Shown here: one piece after another, positions 38,606 to 47,088 of the stretch
Position numbering within the stretch: the stretch's first letter is position 1
Layout: every line of letters starts with the position of its first letter
Source: Methanogenium sp. S4BF
Lineage (GTDB): Archaea > Halobacteriota > Methanomicrobia > Methanomicrobiales > Methanomicrobiaceae
NCBI RefSeq assembly: GCF_029633965.1
Contig: NZ_CP091277.1
Span: 310,001-374,000 of the forward strand
Direction: 5' to 3'
DNA length: 64,000 nt
The notes under the pieces: model-generated
What the model saw: the letters and a program-made list of their open reading frames with translations, nothing else
Database searches by the model: none
Told to the model about the DNA's origin: nothing
Position numbers and translations under genes: made by a program

Positions 38606-39200
38606 TGTATATGGAGTTTGTCGCCACTCTGTTATAGTCTTGAAGGTCCTGAGATGCGGATTATCTCGCAGTAATATGGTAGACGAATGGATCTGAAGAT
38701 CTCCCCCAAATTGTTTCTGACCCGGTATGACGACGTTCCGATCTCGATCGATCTTTTCCCTGACGTGATTGCGTAAAATGCATGGATGCGGTTCGAGCAC
38801 CCGGATGGCAGAGGGAGATGTGGTGTCCACACTGATCAAAGCCCTGTTCGATCCAAACAGCAATATCGGGCAGCGGGCGCAGAGGCATTTGATCATCTCA
38901 ACATTGTGGATTCTGTCCCCTGAATCCTTTTTTTCACCTGAAGATGAAGATCATTATTTCCGGATATCGCATTGCTTGTAGATCCTAATCCGAAGACAGA
39001 CTTCAATGGTGATGGCAGAGTGGCTAACACATATGCAGGATAATTGGATTGCATACATTTTTTAGGAATGATTTACGGCCTCTGATTTGTTTTAAGATGC
39101 ACTGAGAGTCTTATTCCTTGTTTTTTAGCTATTGTACTCACAGAGATAAGATTGTCGCCTTTTCCACAGGGAATACAAAATTATAAATTTTGATATACAT
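38606..39200. other. long intergenic region before the giant surface protein
   Basis: About 600 nt without a credible gene. Short frames exist on both strands (for example TTG 38769 to 38981 plus, and a 29-codon frame at 38689-38778). None has a ribosome site or recognisable motif; they may be gene remnants. The last part is AT-rich and leads into the promoter of the giant protein. Confidence 0.35.
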
Positions 39201-39205
39201 TGATA

Positions 39206-39248
39206 AAATATATTTAATATACTTCATCCGGTTCGGTCCGGTCCGAAC
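39206..39248 (+). promoter_or_regulatory. promoter and inverted repeat of the giant protein gene
   Basis: A strong AT-rich TATA region (AAAATATATTTAATATAC, about 39206-39223) is followed by the perfect inverted repeat GTTCGG-N6-CCGAAC at 39231-39248, near the expected transcription start and 38 nt before the ATG. The position suits a repressor site or a 5' hairpin. Confidence 0.45.
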
Positions 39249-39286
39249 ATACATCTTCTAACACTATTTCAGAGAGGTAATCGATT

Positions 39287-42200
39287 ATGACGAGACAGAG
39301 ATCAATGGTAAAAATCTTTACAGTGCTTATCCTCTGCACCTGTATCATAGCCGGGGTGCAGGCCGCTGAATCATATGAATTTGTCACAAAATGGGGCTCA
39401 TACGGCTATGGTGACGGGCAGTTTATCAGGCCGGAGGGAATTGCGGTGGACGTTGAAGGCAACGTCTATGTGACGGATCCGGGCAACAACCGGATGCAGA
39501 AATTCAGCAACACCGGTGATTTTATCACAAAATGGGGTACCCTCGGCGATGGCGCCGGTCAATTCTCGTATCCCAAGGGCGTCGCGGTGGATGGCGAAGG
39601 CAATGTCTATGTCGTCGAACAGACCAATAACCGCGTCCAGAAGTTCGATGCAGATGGCACCTATATCACCAGATGGGGTACCCAGGGATCAGGTGAAGGC
39701 CAGTTTAACAGCCCGGGAGGTATTGCGGTGGACAATGCCAGCAATATCTATGTGGCAGATACCGTCAATCATCGTGTCCAGAAGTTCGATGCAGATGGCA
39801 CCTATATCACTACATGGGGGTCGCAAGGTTCGGGTGACGGACAGTTCAGATTCCCCCTTGCCATTGCAATAGGTACGAATGACAGTGTGTATGTTGGTGA
39901 CGAGAATTATCGAATCCAGAAGTTTGATTCAAACGGCACCTTCATCACCAAATGGGGTTCAGAAGGCATGGGCAACGGCCAGTTTACCTACCCACCAAGC
40001 GGTGCTGCGACAGATGATCAGGGCAATCTCTTCGTTGCTGAAGGGCAATGGAATACCGGAACCGGCCTGCTGTACCGTGTCCAGAAATTTGATTCAAACG
40101 GCACATTCATCACCAAATGGGGATACCGGGGCTCAGGAGACGGGGAGTTTCAGTATCCAAAGGGCGTTGCAGTGGATAGCGGGGGATATGTCTATGTGGC
40201 AGACGGTGAGGCGCAGAGAGATTATCACCGCATCCAAATGTTCTCATCGCTTCCGTTTGCCAACTTCACCGGAGAGCCAACAGAAGGGAATTTCCCTCTG
40301 CGGGTGAACTTTACCGATACATCCCGGGGGTCGCCCACTTCATGGATCTGGGATTTTGGGGATGGGAATTCCTCTGTTGAACAGCATCCATTCTCCATCT
40401 ATACCGTACCTGGTGTCTACAATGTGTCACTTTCTATAGAGAACGCAGTCAGTAGTAACACAACAACGAAAAATGGTTACATAACCGTCCTTGACTGGGT
40501 CAAAGCGAACTTCACCATGAACACCACCGAGGGTGTTGCACCCCTTACCGTACAGTTCACTGACACCTCAACCGGTGGTCTTGCACCCCCCGACACATGG
40601 GAGTGGAGTCTGGCACGCTATGATGATCCCGAATGGTCGTACACAACTGACGAGCAGAACCCGAACTACACTTTCATGATACCTGATTGGTATCTTGTGT
40701 CATTATGGGTCGGCCGTGACAATCTGAGTAATATAAGTGTATATAGTGGTCACATCAGCGTAACCCAGCCACCACCTGTCACCAGTTTTACCGGGTATCC
40801 CACTGTTGGCTCTGCTCCGCTGACCGTCCAGTTCAACGACACCTCGGCCGGGAATGCCACACAATGGTTCTGGGACTTTGGGGATGGGAACACCTCAACA
40901 CTTCAGCATCCGACCAAAACCTATGAGATACCCGGTTTATACACTATATCACTCAATGCAACCAATGATGCCGGAAGTAACAGTTCCACACGGGAATCCT
41001 ATATTAACGTCACCAATTTCCCGGTAATCCCTGTATCTGACTTTATTGGAACTCCCACATCCGGCAGAATTCCCCTTGCCGTTCAGTTCACTGACACCTC
41101 TGCCGGTGGTCCTACGGAATGGTTCTGGCAGTTTGGTGATGGAACGACGTCAACTGAGCAAAATCCGGAGAAGACCTACACAACCCATGGTACCTTCACC
41201 GTCTCACTCAATGCAACGAATGTCGACGGGAGCAGTATTGCTACTAAGGCAGATTACATAACAGCCACCGACACCCCGACACCACCGGTTGCCAACTTCA
41301 CCGGTACACCGACCAATGGAACCGCACCACTGACCGTTCAGTTCACCGATCTTTCGACGGAAGGACCGACTGAGTGGTTCTGGGAGTTTGGTGACGGAAC
41401 GAATTCGACCGACCAGAACCCGCAAAAGATCTACACAACTGCGGGCATCTACACCGTATCACTCAATGCAACAAATGCCGACGGCAGTAGTACGGAAACA
41501 AAAACGGATTTCATATCGGTAATTGATATCCCTATATCACCTGTTGCCAACTTCACCGGGACTCCCACCATCGGAAGAGTCCCTCTTACCGTTCAGTTCA
41601 CTGATCTCTCGACGGGAGAGCCGACAGAATGGTTCTGGCAGTTTGGTGACGGAACCAATTCAACCGACCAGCACCCGCAGAAGACCTACACAACTTTGGG
41701 CACCTACACCGTCTCTCTCAACGCAACAAATGCCGACGGCAGCAGCACGAAAACACGGGAGAATTACATAACGGTCACTGATGATCCGGTACCACCGGTT
41801 GCCGACTTCACGGGGGCGCCTGTCAATGGAACAACTCCTCTTTCCGTGCAGTTTACCGATCTCTCAACCGGTGGGCCGGCACAGTGGCTCTGGGAGTTTG
41901 GTGACGGAACCAATTCAACCGACCAGAACCCGCTGAAGACCTACACAACTGCGGGCACCTACACCGTCTCACTCAATGCAACAAATGCCGACGGCAGCAG
42001 CACGAAAACACGGGAGAATTACATAACGGTCACTGATGAACCGGCGCCACCGGCTGCCAACTTCTCCGGGACACCCAAAACAGGAATCGCCCCTCTTACC
42101 GTGCAGTTTACCGATCTCTCAACAAGAGAGCCGACAGAGTGGTTCTGGGAGTTTGGTGACGGAACCAATTCAACCGACCAGAATCCACTGAAGACCTACA

Positions 42201-45200
42201 CAACTATTGGAACCTACACCGTCTCACTCAATGCAACGAATGCACAGGGGAGCAGTACCGTCACAAAGGTGAATTACGTAAACGCCACCGATGTTCCCAC
42301 ACCGGCAGACTTCAGATTCATCTCAGAGTGGGGGTCCAGAGGCACAGCTGACGGAGAGTTTACGTATCCAGATGGTATCGTCAGAGACACTGCCGGTAAC
42401 ATATATGTGGTGGATTCCGGCAATGACCGCATCCAGAAGTTCAATAGCACGGGTTCCTTCATCACCACATGGGGCTCTTCCGGATATTCCGGAGATGGGG
42501 AGTTCAACATGCCACATGGCATTGCAGTGGATTCTGACAGCAACGTCTATGTGACAGATACCTGGAATTGCCGCATCCAGAAGTTCAATAGCACTGGCAC
42601 TTTCATCACCAAATGGGGATCATATGGCACTGGTGACGGACAGTTTGACTTTCCACAGGGCATCGCCATTGATGCAGAAGGCTACGTCTATGTAGCAGAT
42701 AATGCGAATCAACGCGTCCAGAAGTTTGATTCAAACGGCACCTTCATCGCCACATGGGGATCGTATGGCACCGATGACGGCGAGTTTGACCGCCCCCATG
42801 GTATTGCAGTGGATGCAGACGGCAACGTCTTCGTATCTGATGCAGTGAATAACAACATCCAGAAATTCACCAGTACCGGCACGTTCATTACGAAATGGGG
42901 AACTGCAGGCTCAGGCGACGGACAGTTCAATGTACCAAGGGGTGTTGCGGTGGATTCGAGGGGGAATGTCTTTGTGGCAGATTCCCTGAACCATCGCATA
43001 CAGATATTTGATACCAACGGAACCTTCCTGACAGAATTTGGTTCGTATGGCACAGGCGTCGGGGAGTTTAACGAGCCATGGGATACCCTGGTGGACAGCG
43101 CCGGCAACGTCTATGTAACAGATGCACGGAATCACCGCATCCAGGTATTCGCACCCATTCCCGAAGGAATGCCAATCGCGAACTTCACTGCTCTGCCAAC
43201 CGCTGGTACAGCCCCGCTGACTGTTTCGTTCACCGATGAATCATCCGGAGAACCTACGGAATGGAACTGGGCCTTTGGGGATGGTACTACCTCTACTGAA
43301 CAGAACCCGACAAAGACGTATACGATACCCGGCTTCTACACCGTCTCGTTAACAGCAACAAATGAAGTTGGAAGCGACACCAAAACAAAGAATGACTGCA
43401 TAACAGTGAGTCCTCCGGCAGAAGACTACGAATTCGTCATGAAATGGGGATTATATGGCGATGGTCGGCTCCTCGGTCCAATGGGCATTGGGGTGGACGC
43501 TGCCGGCAACGTCTATGTGGCAGACGCCAATAATCTCCGGATCCAGAAATTTGACAGTAACGGTACCTTTAGCACCACATGGGGTTCTCCGGGCTCCGGC
43601 GACGGGGAGTTTGGATGCGACTATGATTCTTATTCTGAGAATGGACCGTATGGCGTTGCGATGGATACTGCCGGCAACGTCTATGTGGCAGACCGCTATA
43701 ATAATCGGATCCAGAAGTTTGATTCAAACGGCACCTTCATCACGAAATGGGGATCGTATGGCTCCGGCGACGGGGAGTTTTCTGATCCGCGTGGTATCAC
43801 CGTGGACAGTGCCGGCTACCTCTATGTATCAGATTACTGGAATAACCGTATCCAGAAGTTTGATAGTTCCGGCACTTTCATCACAAAATTTGTATTCTCT
43901 CAGGGCTCTGGCGACGGACAATTCGGGCTGGGACCAGATAGCGTTGCAGTAGACGGTGCCGGCAACATCTATGTGACAGACTCCATTAATTCCCGGATCC
44001 AGACATTCGACAGTTCCGGCACCTTCATTGCCGCATGGGGTTCATATGGCGCAGGACTCGGGCAACTCCGTTCTCCGACAGGCATCGCAGTGGATGCAGA
44101 CAGCAACATCTACGTGGCTGATTCTGGCAATAATCGCATCCAGGCATTCACCAGCACCGGCACATTCCTTGCCGCGTGGGGCCTGCGGGGCACCGGGGAC
44201 GGAGAGTTTGAACAGCCGCGTGGCATCGTTGTTGATGCAGAAGGCTACGTCTATGTAACCGACCACTATAATAACCGCGTCCAGAAGTTCGATACGAATG
44301 GCACCTTCATCACCGCATGGGGCTCTGAGCCGCCTGCTGGAAGCGAGTTCTCATACCCTGAGGGTGTCGCGATTGATGATGCCGGCAATGTCTATGTGGC
44401 AGATACCAACAATCACCGCATCCAGAAGTTCGATGCCAATGGCACCTTTATCACAACATGGGGCCACGAGGAATCACCATCTTTACCCGGTGAGCTTCCC
44501 GTGATCGAAGCGAATGGAAACTTCTCCTTCCCGAAAGGAGTCGCTATCGATGGTGAAGGTTTTGTCTATGTGGCAGACTCAGGCAATAACCGTATCCAGA
44601 AGTTCGATGCCAACGGCACCTTCATCACGAAATGGGGAGGGGCGATTGGCTATGGCGATGGGCAGTTCAGTGGTCTGCGTGGCATCGCTGCGGATGAGGA
44701 CGGATTCATCTATGTGGCGGATGCTGAAGAATACACCATTGCGCGGGTACAGAAGTTCGATTCCAACGGGACCTTCATCACGAAATGGGGATCGTATGGC
44801 ACCGGCGACGGGGAGTTCATGGATCCGCAGGGTGTCGCGACAGATCCTTTCGGCAATGTTTATGTGACAGACGAATATGGCAGCCGGATTCAGAAATTTG
44901 ATTCAAACGGCACATTCATTGACACATGGGCATCAGATGACACGGGAGTCAGGCAGCTCCTCTCTCCTTCCTGTATCACAACGGACGATGCAGGCAATGT
45001 CTATGTGACATCCTTTGATCTCTATACGGCATCCTCTGATATCCGGAAGTTTACCGGCAATGGTATCTTCATCACCTCATGGGGGGGCCCGGGCCCCGGT
45101 GATGGTGAGTTTTCAGGGCTGCTCGGTGTTGCAGTCAATGGTGACGGCCTTGTCTATGCAGCGGATGAATACAATAACAGGATACAGGTGTTCAGATCAT

Positions 45201-46753
45201 ACACCCCCGCCACCCCTCCTGTTGCCGCCTTTATTGCTAATGTCACAAGCGGTTCTGCTCCCCTCGCAGTGCAGTTCACCGACATGTCTACAGGAAATCC
45301 GGCATCATGGGTATGGAACTTTGGTGACGGGAACACATCAACCGTTCAGAACCCCTCGCATCTCTACACGATGGAAGGCACTTTCAATGTGAGTCTGAAT
45401 GTCTCCAATGCAGGCGGTTCGGACACCATAACAGAGGTAAATCTGATAACCATTTCCGCACCTGTACCAGAGGCACGGTTTGATCTGAACCGTAACTTTG
45501 CCGCATCAACTGAGAATGATACATTTGTACCGGGGAGTTATCCTTCCTTCCAGACATACAGACTGCATGCCGAGAATCTGGATGAAACAGTATCCCTCGG
45601 AAATCTGACATATGTTGCAGGCGTTGCAAATATCACCTCTGTTGAGTATGATGATTATGCAACATGGAACTCAACCTATGCAGAGTGGAATTTCCCGTCA
45701 GATTATGTAATCGGGCCCCAGAGTGCGTTTGATACACGGGCAGACACCTCATTTGCAGAGGTTAGATCATTCACCCATACATTGACACGAAACTGCAGTC
45801 AGATAACATTTACAGCACCTGGAATTCAGGAGACAAATATCACGTTAGTATTGGATGACCTTGATTTTGAGTCAGTATTTGTCGGGTTTGCATCAGCAAA
45901 AGACCATAATATGACAACTGAAATTATCAACTCGTCGTTTATGACAAATGCACCTCTTTCAACGCCTCTTCTGACAGACGGTAGTTATCACCTGAAACTT
46001 GACAAATCTGCTCTTGTAATCGGAGCAGAGTATTACTTCAGGTTTGATACAGCTATCATTCCCAATGGGACTGCCGTGATGCATAAACCGATAGCATATG
46101 TCTGGGAAGGTCAGAACAATGGCAATGCCGACTTGGGGGTAATGAATAAGGCTGAAATACCTGCATCTATGCTGCCATCGGATGCATCTGAGTTTTCGGT
46201 TCAGACGAATACGTCATGCAACTGGGGTGTTGTATGGCAGGACAACCTTCTCTCAATTCTGAAAGGAGTGTCCGTCAGAGTGACTCTCCCTCCTGCGGCA
46301 AACTTTACTGCCGATCCTCTCCAGGGATATATCCCTCTTACAGTACAGTTCACTGACACCTCAACCGGCAATGTCACCTCATGGTTCTGGAACTTCGGTG
46401 ACGGCACAAACTCGACCGAACAAAACCCGGTTCATGTCTTTACCTCACCCGGCAGCTATTCCGTTCTGCTCTCGATTAACGGGGATGAAGATATCTTTAC
46501 GAAGCCCGACTACATCAGGGTCACTTCAGGGGTTCTTCTCGGCGATGCAAATAATGACGGCGAGGTAAACCAGGCTGATACCCTGCGTGTGCTCAAAGAG
46601 GTTGTAGGAATAACGGAACTGCCTGCGAAGAATACGGATGATTTTGAGCGCACCGATGTCCACTGGAACGGTGCTGTCGAAGTTGGCGATGCGATGTTCA
46701 TCGCCCAGTATAATGTGGGACTGCGGGACGCGTGGTTTAGGGTGATTGAATAA
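39287..46753 (+). CDS. giant secreted NHL-propeller/PKD protein with C-terminal dockerin-like domain
   Basis: 2488 residues. A signal peptide (MVKIFTVLILCTCIIAGVQA, residues 7-26) precedes: six NHL blades (about 29-322); eight PKD domains (324-1003); six NHL blades (1004-1291); one PKD (1292-1378); twelve NHL blades (1380-1973), enough for two six-bladed propellers; one PKD (1974-2061); an unrecognised 275-residue domain; one PKD (2337-2415); and a dockerin-like double calcium motif (GDANNDGEVNQADTLRVLKE, then GAVEVGDAMFIAQYNVG). Blades follow GDGQF-P-GIAVD--GNVYV-D--NNRIQKFD; PKDs carry W-WEFGDGTNST. It is surely exported and probably N-glycosylated (many NGT/NST). An adhesive or scaffold role is inferred. 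It is transcribed alone. Confidence 0.9.
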   Translation: MTRQRSMVKIFTVLILCTCIIAGVQAAESYEFVTKWGSYGYGDGQFIRPEGIAVDVEGNVYVTDPGNNRMQKFSNTGDFITKWGTLGDGAGQFSYPKGVAVDGEGNVYVVEQTNNRVQKFDADGTYITRWGTQGSGEGQFNSPGGIAVDNASNIYVADTVNHRVQKFDADGTYITTWGSQGSGDGQFRFPLAIAIGTNDSVYVGDENYRIQKFDSNGTFITKWGSEGMGNGQFTYPPSGAATDDQGNLFVAEGQWNTGTGLLYRVQKFDSNGTFITKWGYRGSGDGEFQYPKGVAVDSGGYVYVADGEAQRDYHRIQMFSSLPFANFTGEPTEGNFPLRVNFTDTSRGSPTSWIWDFGDGNSSVEQHPFSIYTVPGVYNVSLSIENAVSSNTTTKNGYITVLDWVKANFTMNTTEGVAPLTVQFTDTSTGGLAPPDTWEWSLARYDDPEWSYTTDEQNPNYTFMIPDWYLVSLWVGRDNLSNISVYSGHISVTQPPPVTSFTGYPTVGSAPLTVQFNDTSAGNATQWFWDFGDGNTSTLQHPTKTYEIPGLYTISLNATNDAGSNSSTRESYINVTNFPVIPVSDFIGTPTSGRIPLAVQFTDTSAGGPTEWFWQFGDGTTSTEQNPEKTYTTHGTFTVSLNATNVDGSSIATKADYITATDTPTPPVANFTGTPTNGTAPLTVQFTDLSTEGPTEWFWEFGDGTNSTDQNPQKIYTTAGIYTVSLNATNADGSSTETKTDFISVIDIPISPVANFTGTPTIGRVPLTVQFTDLSTGEPTEWFWQFGDGTNSTDQHPQKTYTTLGTYTVSLNATNADGSSTKTRENYITVTDDPVPPVADFTGAPVNGTTPLSVQFTDLSTGGPAQWLWEFGDGTNSTDQNPLKTYTTAGTYTVSLNATNADGSSTKTRENYITVTDEPAPPAANFSGTPKTGIAPLTVQFTDLSTREPTEWFWEFGDGTNSTDQNPLKTYTTIGTYTVSLNATNAQGSSTVTKVNYVNATDVPTPADFRFISEWGSRGTADGEFTYPDGIVRDTAGNIYVVDSGNDRIQKFNSTGSFITTWGSSGYSGDGEFNMPHGIAVDSDSNVYVTDTWNCRIQKFNSTGTFITKWGSYGTGDGQFDFPQGIAIDAEGYVYVADNANQRVQKFDSNGTFIATWGSYGTDDGEFDRPHGIAVDADGNVFVSDAVNNNIQKFTSTGTFITKWGTAGSGDGQFNVPRGVAVDSRGNVFVADSLNHRIQIFDTNGTFLTEFGSYGTGVGEFNEPWDTLVDSAGNVYVTDARNHRIQVFAPIPEGMPIANFTALPTAGTAPLTVSFTDESSGEPTEWNWAFGDGTTSTEQNPTKTYTIPGFYTVSLTATNEVGSDTKTKNDCITVSPPAEDYEFVMKWGLYGDGRLLGPMGIGVDAAGNVYVADANNLRIQKFDSNGTFSTTWGSPGSGDGEFGCDYDSYSENGPYGVAMDTAGNVYVADRYNNRIQKFDSNGTFITKWGSYGSGDGEFSDPRGITVDSAGYLYVSDYWNNRIQKFDSSGTFITKFVFSQGSGDGQFGLGPDSVAVDGAGNIYVTDSINSRIQTFDSSGTFIAAWGSYGAGLGQLRSPTGIAVDADSNIYVADSGNNRIQAFTSTGTFLAAWGLRGTGDGEFEQPRGIVVDAEGYVYVTDHYNNRVQKFDTNGTFITAWGSEPPAGSEFSYPEGVAIDDAGNVYVADTNNHRIQKFDANGTFITTWGHEESPSLPGELPVIEANGNFSFPKGVAIDGEGFVYVADSGNNRIQKFDANGTFITKWGGAIGYGDGQFSGLRGIAADEDGFIYVADAEEYTIARVQKFDSNGTFITKWGSYGTGDGEFMDPQGVATDPFGNVYVTDEYGSRIQKFDSNGTFIDTWASDDTGVRQLLSPSCITTDDAGNVYVTSFDLYTASSDIRKFTGNGIFITSWGGPGPGDGEFSGLLGVAVNGDGLVYAADEYNNRIQVFRSYTPATPPVAAFIANVTSGSAPLAVQFTDMSTGNPASWVWNFGDGNTSTVQNPSHLYTMEGTFNVSLNVSNAGGSDTITEVNLITISAPVPEARFDLNRNFAASTENDTFVPGSYPSFQTYRLHAENLDETVSLGNLTYVAGVANITSVEYDDYATWNSTYAEWNFPSDYVIGPQSAFDTRADTSFAEVRSFTHTLTRNCSQITFTAPGIQETNITLVLDDLDFESVFVGFASAKDHNMTTEIINSSFMTNAPLSTPLLTDGSYHLKLDKSALVIGAEYYFRFDTAIIPNGTAVMHKPIAYVWEGQNNGNADLGVMNKAEIPASMLPSDASEFSVQTNTSCNWGVVWQDNLLSILKGVSVRVTLPPAANFTADPLQGYIPLTVQFTDTSTGNVTSWFWNFGDGTNSTEQNPVHVFTSPGSYSVLLSINGDEDIFTKPDYIRVTSGVLLGDANNDGEVNQADTLRVLKEVVGITELPAKNTDDFERTDVHWNGAVEVGDAMFIAQYNVGLRDAWFRVIE
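41033..42297 (+). repeat. 255-bp tandem repeats encoding PKD domains 4-8
   Basis: Five consecutive PKD units begin at about 41033, 41288, 41543, 41798 and 42053, exactly 255 bp apart (85 codons). Units 6 and 7 are nearly identical at DNA level over their last 75 nt or so, including silent positions, which points to recent duplication or gene conversion. Copy number may vary among strains, and the region is prone to assembly collapse. Confidence 0.8.
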
Positions 46754-47088
46754 TTTTTCCCACAGGCAGAGAAAGAACCCAATTTCTCCGATTATTTTTT
46801 CCTGCATCGCATATTCAGGATCGGCAGTGAATCCGATTTTTTTGCATCGGGTCAGGGTCTTCTGCATGTTCTTTCGGGATTAAAATGGCTAAATTGCCAC
46901 CAAATTTTTAACCATCTCTTCCTCCTCATTACATTGCGGTCCGTCTCTGAACCTAATATCGATTCTATCGCTACCCTTTTACAGCATAGATGGTGTCGGT
47001 GGTACACATATGCACTCTGAGGATGCAGGAACCCTACGACTTCATCATCGCAGGAGAACTGCCATCCGAAACGTATATTCAAAAAAGA
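46754..47088. other. intergenic region after the giant protein
   Basis: Contains two T-rich stretches (about 46793-46800 and 46836-46842), each followed by TGCATCG, so a loose direct repeat that may act in termination. No gene is supported. Confidence 0.35.

Follow-up and report, generated by a model that had tools for sequence, protein, structure and literature searches.

The window analysed here, 64,000 nucleotides of the genome of Methanogenium sp. S4BF, contains a giant gene whose product combines many propeller blades and PKD domains with a dockerin-like end. What could such an end dock to in a methanogen, and how did the gene reach its present site? Non-cellulosomal cohesins and dockerins are known in archaea, many of them in ANME archaea, and they are thought to link surface proteins (PMC9012536, PMC5244752). 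Among the ANME dockerin/cohesin proteins described by Chadwick et al. 2022, scaffoldin-like proteins carry up to five cohesins and the cargo consists of transporter-binding proteins (PMC9012536). A preliminary description of the window gene had proposed a cohesin-type partner on the cell surface, hinting at a cellulosome-like or S-layer-bound scaffold. We asked whether the genome holds such a partner and what kind of system the two could form.

Architecture of the window protein and its dockerin

The gene (39287..46753, + strand) is a single open frame of 2488 codons with an ATG start and no internal stops, as the preliminary description had it. Its product matches Pfam NHL, PKD and Dockerin_1 and begins with a probable signal peptide (aa 1-26, MTRQRSMVKIFTVLILCTCIIAGVQA; 39287..39364), an N-terminal hydrophobic stretch judged by eye. 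On the same strand follow NHL set I with 6 blades (aa 27-325; 39365..40261), 8 PKD domains (aa 326-1010; 40262..42316), NHL set II with 6 blades (aa 1014-1300; 42326..43186), PKD 9 (43196..43420), NHL set III with 12 blades (aa 1385-1983; 43439..45235), PKD 10 (45242..45472), a segment we call domain X (aa 2063-2335; 45473..46291), PKD 11 (46292..46516) and the dockerin (46526..46750). Motif counts give 24 blade cores, in sets of 6 (aa 58-306), 6 (1037-1279) and 12 (1407-1960), and 11 PKD cores (8+1+1+1, WxFGDG core, the second one degenerate). These are exactly the numbers first proposed, and Pfam agrees: the matches to NHL (PF01436, E 7e-169) and PKD_4 (E 2.5e-167) are such that the repeats are not chance, and the PKD assignment (PF18911/PF00801) has both the profile match and the core motif. 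Domain X (272 aa) had no match in the Pfam search. Both domain X and the fact that the locus is an island (see below) had been missed initially. The genes on both sides face the other way, so the gene has no operon partner, as had been noted. The names ScyF and polycystin, suggested by NCBIfam, were rejected, because the matches stem from common NHL or PKD repeats and not from membership.

The structure model is confident for the blades and of low confidence for domain X and the dockerin. Within the modelled run of 12 blades, residues 5-284 align with six-bladed NHL rings (Z ~42, rmsd 1.2-1.3 Å over 266-269 residues), indicating that the first half of the run closes as a six-bladed ring; the second six blades probably close in the same way. 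Of the four complete six-bladed propellers proposed earlier, the six-bladed units and the ring fit in the first half of the long run thus stand, and closure of its second half is an extrapolation. With both the PF01436 profile and the ring match, the window protein has the same six-blade ring as TRIM-NHL, Thin, PknD and the designed Pizza6 (1.2-1.3 Å over ~270 residues). It differs from them in having four such sets in one predicted secreted chain, separated by PKD domains.

The dockerin-like end is borne out by several lines of evidence. It spans aa 2418-2475 and scores 18.9 bits against Pfam Dockerin_1 in the whole-protein scan, slightly under the 22.9 cut-off, and 25.6 bits, above the cut-off, in the genome search. 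The top PDB entry by sequence is the xylanase Y dockerin of Clostridium thermocellum (2ccl_B, E 2.9e-5). The window dockerin has a canonical F-hand in loop 1, DANNDGEVNQAD, and a nearly canonical one in loop 2, DVHWNGAVEVGD, with H at position 3; two F-hand calcium loops and a profile match are what characterise a type I dockerin (PF00404). The module belongs to a class that we call DocA, whose profile also has dockerins as its best PDB matches. DocA scores at least 98 bits in 20 of 150 genomes of the order and 42.8 bits in the next one, with 71% mean column identity and 30 invariant columns over three families. Judged by sequence, DocA is one sharply bounded dockerin class.

Five proteins of the window genome carry DocA: the window protein, a subtilase, a papain-like protease that also has a lectin-like domain, PKDs and domain X, a 3361-aa Kelch-propeller protein, and a DUF3344 protein. 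None of the five has a Pfam glycoside hydrolase or carbohydrate-binding module. The Kelch/BNR-propeller protein (G000:C1:1008291-1018376, L034), with PKDs and DocA, is a second giant propeller cargo of the class. NHL sets and DocA also share one frame in Methanogenium marinum DSM 15558 (G107) and in two further genomes (G040 and G132), so the combination is recurrent.

A four-gene cohesin operon

The window genome, a single contig of 2,513,916 bases, has two sites with Pfam cohesin matches above the cut-off and two with weaker matches. The predicted cohesin-type partner thus has candidates in the genome; absence of any cohesin, named beforehand as grounds for dropping the idea, was not seen. 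Four genes lie in a row at C1:185.2-198.6 kb. Gene A encodes the DocA-bearing subtilase, with CARDB, cohesin and dockerin; gene B a cohesin, a TED/cyclase-like domain and a dockerin of another kind; gene C a protein of 241 aa with a cohesin, a linker and a C-terminal helix; and gene D a protein of 1131 aa with an N-terminal cohesin and a C-terminal helix. Each of the four proteins shows one cohesin. The order A-B-C-D is kept in the nine loci compared, from three families, and at 9/9 of them proteins C and D end in a hydrophobic helix, as expected for a membrane anchor.

The cohesin assignment of B and D comes from profile searches: protein B matches PDB cohesins (3l8q, E 1.7e-5; 2xdh, E 0.001) and protein D matches NagJ cohesin modules (E 3e-4). 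Because Pfam gave no match for protein C, its structure was modelled. The model has a confident core of 110 residues, which is structurally closest to the Archaeoglobus fulgidus cohesin 2xdh (Z 12.1, 2.1 Å over 102 residues), with about 40 cohesins next; 34 Foldseek matches at E<=0.001 are also mostly cohesins. The sequence profile of protein C found no match in the PDB, and the likeness is seen by fold. The predicted structure shows that protein C has a cohesin fold. The window genome hence combines dockerins with a cohesin-fold protein, the mark of an archaeal non-cellulosomal system.

Two further observations concern the repertoire of plugs and sockets. Elsewhere in the genome (G000:C1:1219251-1224900, L033), a 4330-aa frame with ~16 PEGA repeats, PKDs and a C-terminal membrane helix has one cohesin above the Pfam cut-off, perhaps a second, and could be a further anchored cohesin. 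The dockerin of gene B (L032:6566-10378; homologues in L171-L183) is self-symmetric, e.g., SIDSLYILHFVVGN / AIDALYISHRVVGN, and its repeat varies in step in both halves between genomes. Such a pattern of residues is as expected for a dual-binding plug that co-varies with its own socket.

Are DocA and the predicted anchored cohesins found together? Protein C was detected in 17 of the 150 genomes, and all 17 are among the 20 with DocA (Fisher p 1e-19, with related genomes counted as independent). Part of this co-occurrence is linkage, since gene A itself carries DocA. DocA occurs outside the operon in 16 genomes, and 14 of these have an anchored cohesin. The DocA genomes lacking protein C are G003, G039 and G104, and in G039 a homologue of D was also not detected. 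G009 and G027 are two genomes of another family that carry the window gene, and their two anchored cohesins are only 30-43% identical to those of the window genome; a common socket across families is thus an assumption.

An island shared between methanogen families

The gene lies within an 8.4-kb island (38648..47083) that is absent at the syntenic site of three congeners. There, 19-25 unrelated bp take its place between the DNA left of 38647 and that right of 47084. The difference could be either an insertion in the window genome or a loss in all three congeners. Its core of 7.8-8.0 kb (39064..47021) has counterparts in G027 and G009, with 90.1-90.5% DNA identity over 39064-46865/47021. The G009 and G027 copies are 95.2% identical in DNA and occupy non-homologous sites. 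For the neighbouring SecD protein, identity is 92% with the congeners and 64% with G009/G027, and the DNA of the SecD region is 75.6% identical between G009 and G027. Such a pattern of identities is not readily given by vertical descent.

Codon composition bears on the source of the gene. GC3 is 0.545 in all three copies, within the range of the window genome (0.43-0.64) and below that of long ORFs near SecD in G009/G027 (0.64-0.84), whose genus has ~60% GC, a value that would suit Methanofollis, as a guess. Hence, either the gene would have entered those two genomes from a lineage of ~50% GC, perhaps a Methanogenium relative, or a third source would have given it to all three. Nothing that we recognised explains the movement: there is no recognisable transposase within the island, an IS element as carrier was rejected because the 639 bp left of the gene are single-copy in the genome, and an 11-bp direct repeat flanking the core (39027 and 47004) was discounted, as we estimate that ~0.06 such repeats are expected by chance over these stretches. 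The G009 copy (L167, G009:C1:2424500-2444400) adjoins a frame that resembles, by eye, a CRISPR-associated HD nuclease/helicase, and the G027 copy adjoins an Imm5-like immunity gene; a small ORF beside the latter copy (L166:13857-14192) had no family match. Directly left of the conserved core, at 38978-39043 of the window, an in-frame VDPNPKTDFNGDGRVANTYAG followed by a stop resembles one dockerin calcium loop, which may be chance or a remnant of another dockerin gene.

The protein has been under purifying selection, as indicated by a dN/dS of 0.185 for the whole gene against the G027 orthologue (L166) and of 0.10 for the dockerin, the lowest segment together with PKD10. Against the same orthologue, dS is 0.11-0.16 in PKD10 and domain X and 0.24-0.46 elsewhere, which suggests later recombination within the gene. 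More distant relatives show how the parts have been reassorted. Methanocalculus-type genomes (G006, M. taiwanensis, and G036) and G080 have retained the body at 52-69% identity, all with the same plan of 6 blades, PKD array, 6 blades, PKD, 12 blades and PKD. The relatives in G006 and G036 differ in having another dockerin class and no domain X in that protein; the contig of G080 ends before the tail. Domain X is found at 82-83% identity in another Methanocalculus protein and at 55-57% in other Methanogenium DocA proteins. Recombination has thus joined body, domain X and plug in different ways, and body and plug are separable modules.

Docking model, alternatives and implications

We propose that the window protein is a surface cargo with propellers, exchanged horizontally, and that it docks via DocA onto anchored cohesins, a reading to which we give a probability of roughly 0.62. 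The protein would be secreted and displayed outside the cell as six-bladed NHL propellers with PKD spacers, and its C-terminal DocA would plug, with calcium, into a cohesin at the cell surface. The likeliest socket would be one of the two putatively membrane-anchored cohesin proteins, C or D. The same socket would serve the DocA-bearing subtilase, papain-like protease, Kelch-propeller and DUF3344 proteins, and the propellers would present binding surfaces to a partner, presumably in adhesion. The gene and its own upstream region would pass from one methanogen family to another as a unit. This differs from the scaffold first envisaged: the window protein has no cohesin of its own, which makes it cargo. 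Binding to the S-layer is not borne out either, since the predicted anchors are C-terminal membrane helices.

The other explanations that we considered differ in where DocA docks, and in whether docking matters at all. DocA could dock on the soluble cohesin of protein A or B, placing the propeller protein in a released extracellular protease or matrix complex that is not tied to membrane anchors. Proteins A and B each bear a cohesin and a dockerin, and the different, self-symmetric dockerin at the end of B would allow chains of the type A-B-anchor. Yet the same operon holds two predicted anchored cohesins and DocA is present in all genomes in which protein C was detected, and we regard a released complex as unlikely. 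It is more doubtful still that the dockerin is a calcium-stabilised cap or a vestige, and that the propellers or domain X hold in place what would be a common type of secreted matrix or S-layer-associated adhesin. Such an explanation has some appeal because many archaea have dockerin-like ends without proven partners (PMC5244752, PMC9012536), but it fits poorly with the strong constraint on DocA, in dN/dS and in invariant columns, and with its presence nearly only where anchored cohesins are. Finally, since a lyase (3fvz, Z 32) and receptors such as the PknD sensor domains also have NHL rings, the propellers could be an enzyme or a receptor, e.g., lyase-like or for proteins or glycans, with docking being secondary. 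A catalytic signature was not found in the propellers, and fold alone shows no function; we consider this very improbable.

How does docking onto anchored cohesins compare with known systems? Of the cellulosome-like character proposed earlier, the docking principle holds and the enzymatic content does not, as Pfam finds no glycoside hydrolase in the DocA proteins of this genome, which are propellers, proteases and a DUF3344 protein. With bacterial cellulosomes (the type I cohesin-dockerin pair of C. thermocellum), DocA has in common the plug-and-socket principle and the first rank of the xylanase Y dockerin in the PDB. It differs from them in that we found neither a multi-cohesin scaffoldin for the class nor a glycoside hydrolase on DocA proteins, and a cellulosome was rejected because the five DocA proteins have no Pfam match to glycoside hydrolases or carbohydrate-binding modules. 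The archaeal non-cellulosomal systems (the A. fulgidus cohesin 2xdh; ANME archaea; Timmers et al. 2017, PMC5244752) likewise pair a cohesin fold with dockerins and lack a cellulosome. Unlike them, the window genome has a conserved four-gene operon with two putatively membrane-anchored single-cohesin proteins, one bounded dockerin class, propellers and proteases as the docked proteins, and among the cargo genes one that moves between families. Our literature search returned no paper describing the operon or the window protein; a 2009 survey of non-cellulosomal modules (PMC3035643) lay outside it, and an earlier mention is possible. Archaeal cohesins and dockerins are known, but the literature searched mentioned neither the anchored operon nor the bounded class, nor the passage of a giant cargo gene from one family to another.

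For the question of what cohesins and dockerins do in archaea that lack cellulosomes, this locus offers a concrete pair: the five DocA proteins and the four cohesins of the operon, all in a single cultured genus. That two families have a dockerin cargo gene of 7.5 kb in common at 90% DNA identity suggests that the gene moved as a whole from one methanogen family to another and that surface parts are traded as plug-in modules. More tentatively, and at less than even odds, DocA and the anchored cohesin could form an inter-species docking standard, in which lone cargo genes would work on arrival wherever the socket exists and the exchange of dockerin tails would open other socket communities. If docking is true, methanogens would remodel their surface by trading plug-in proteins.
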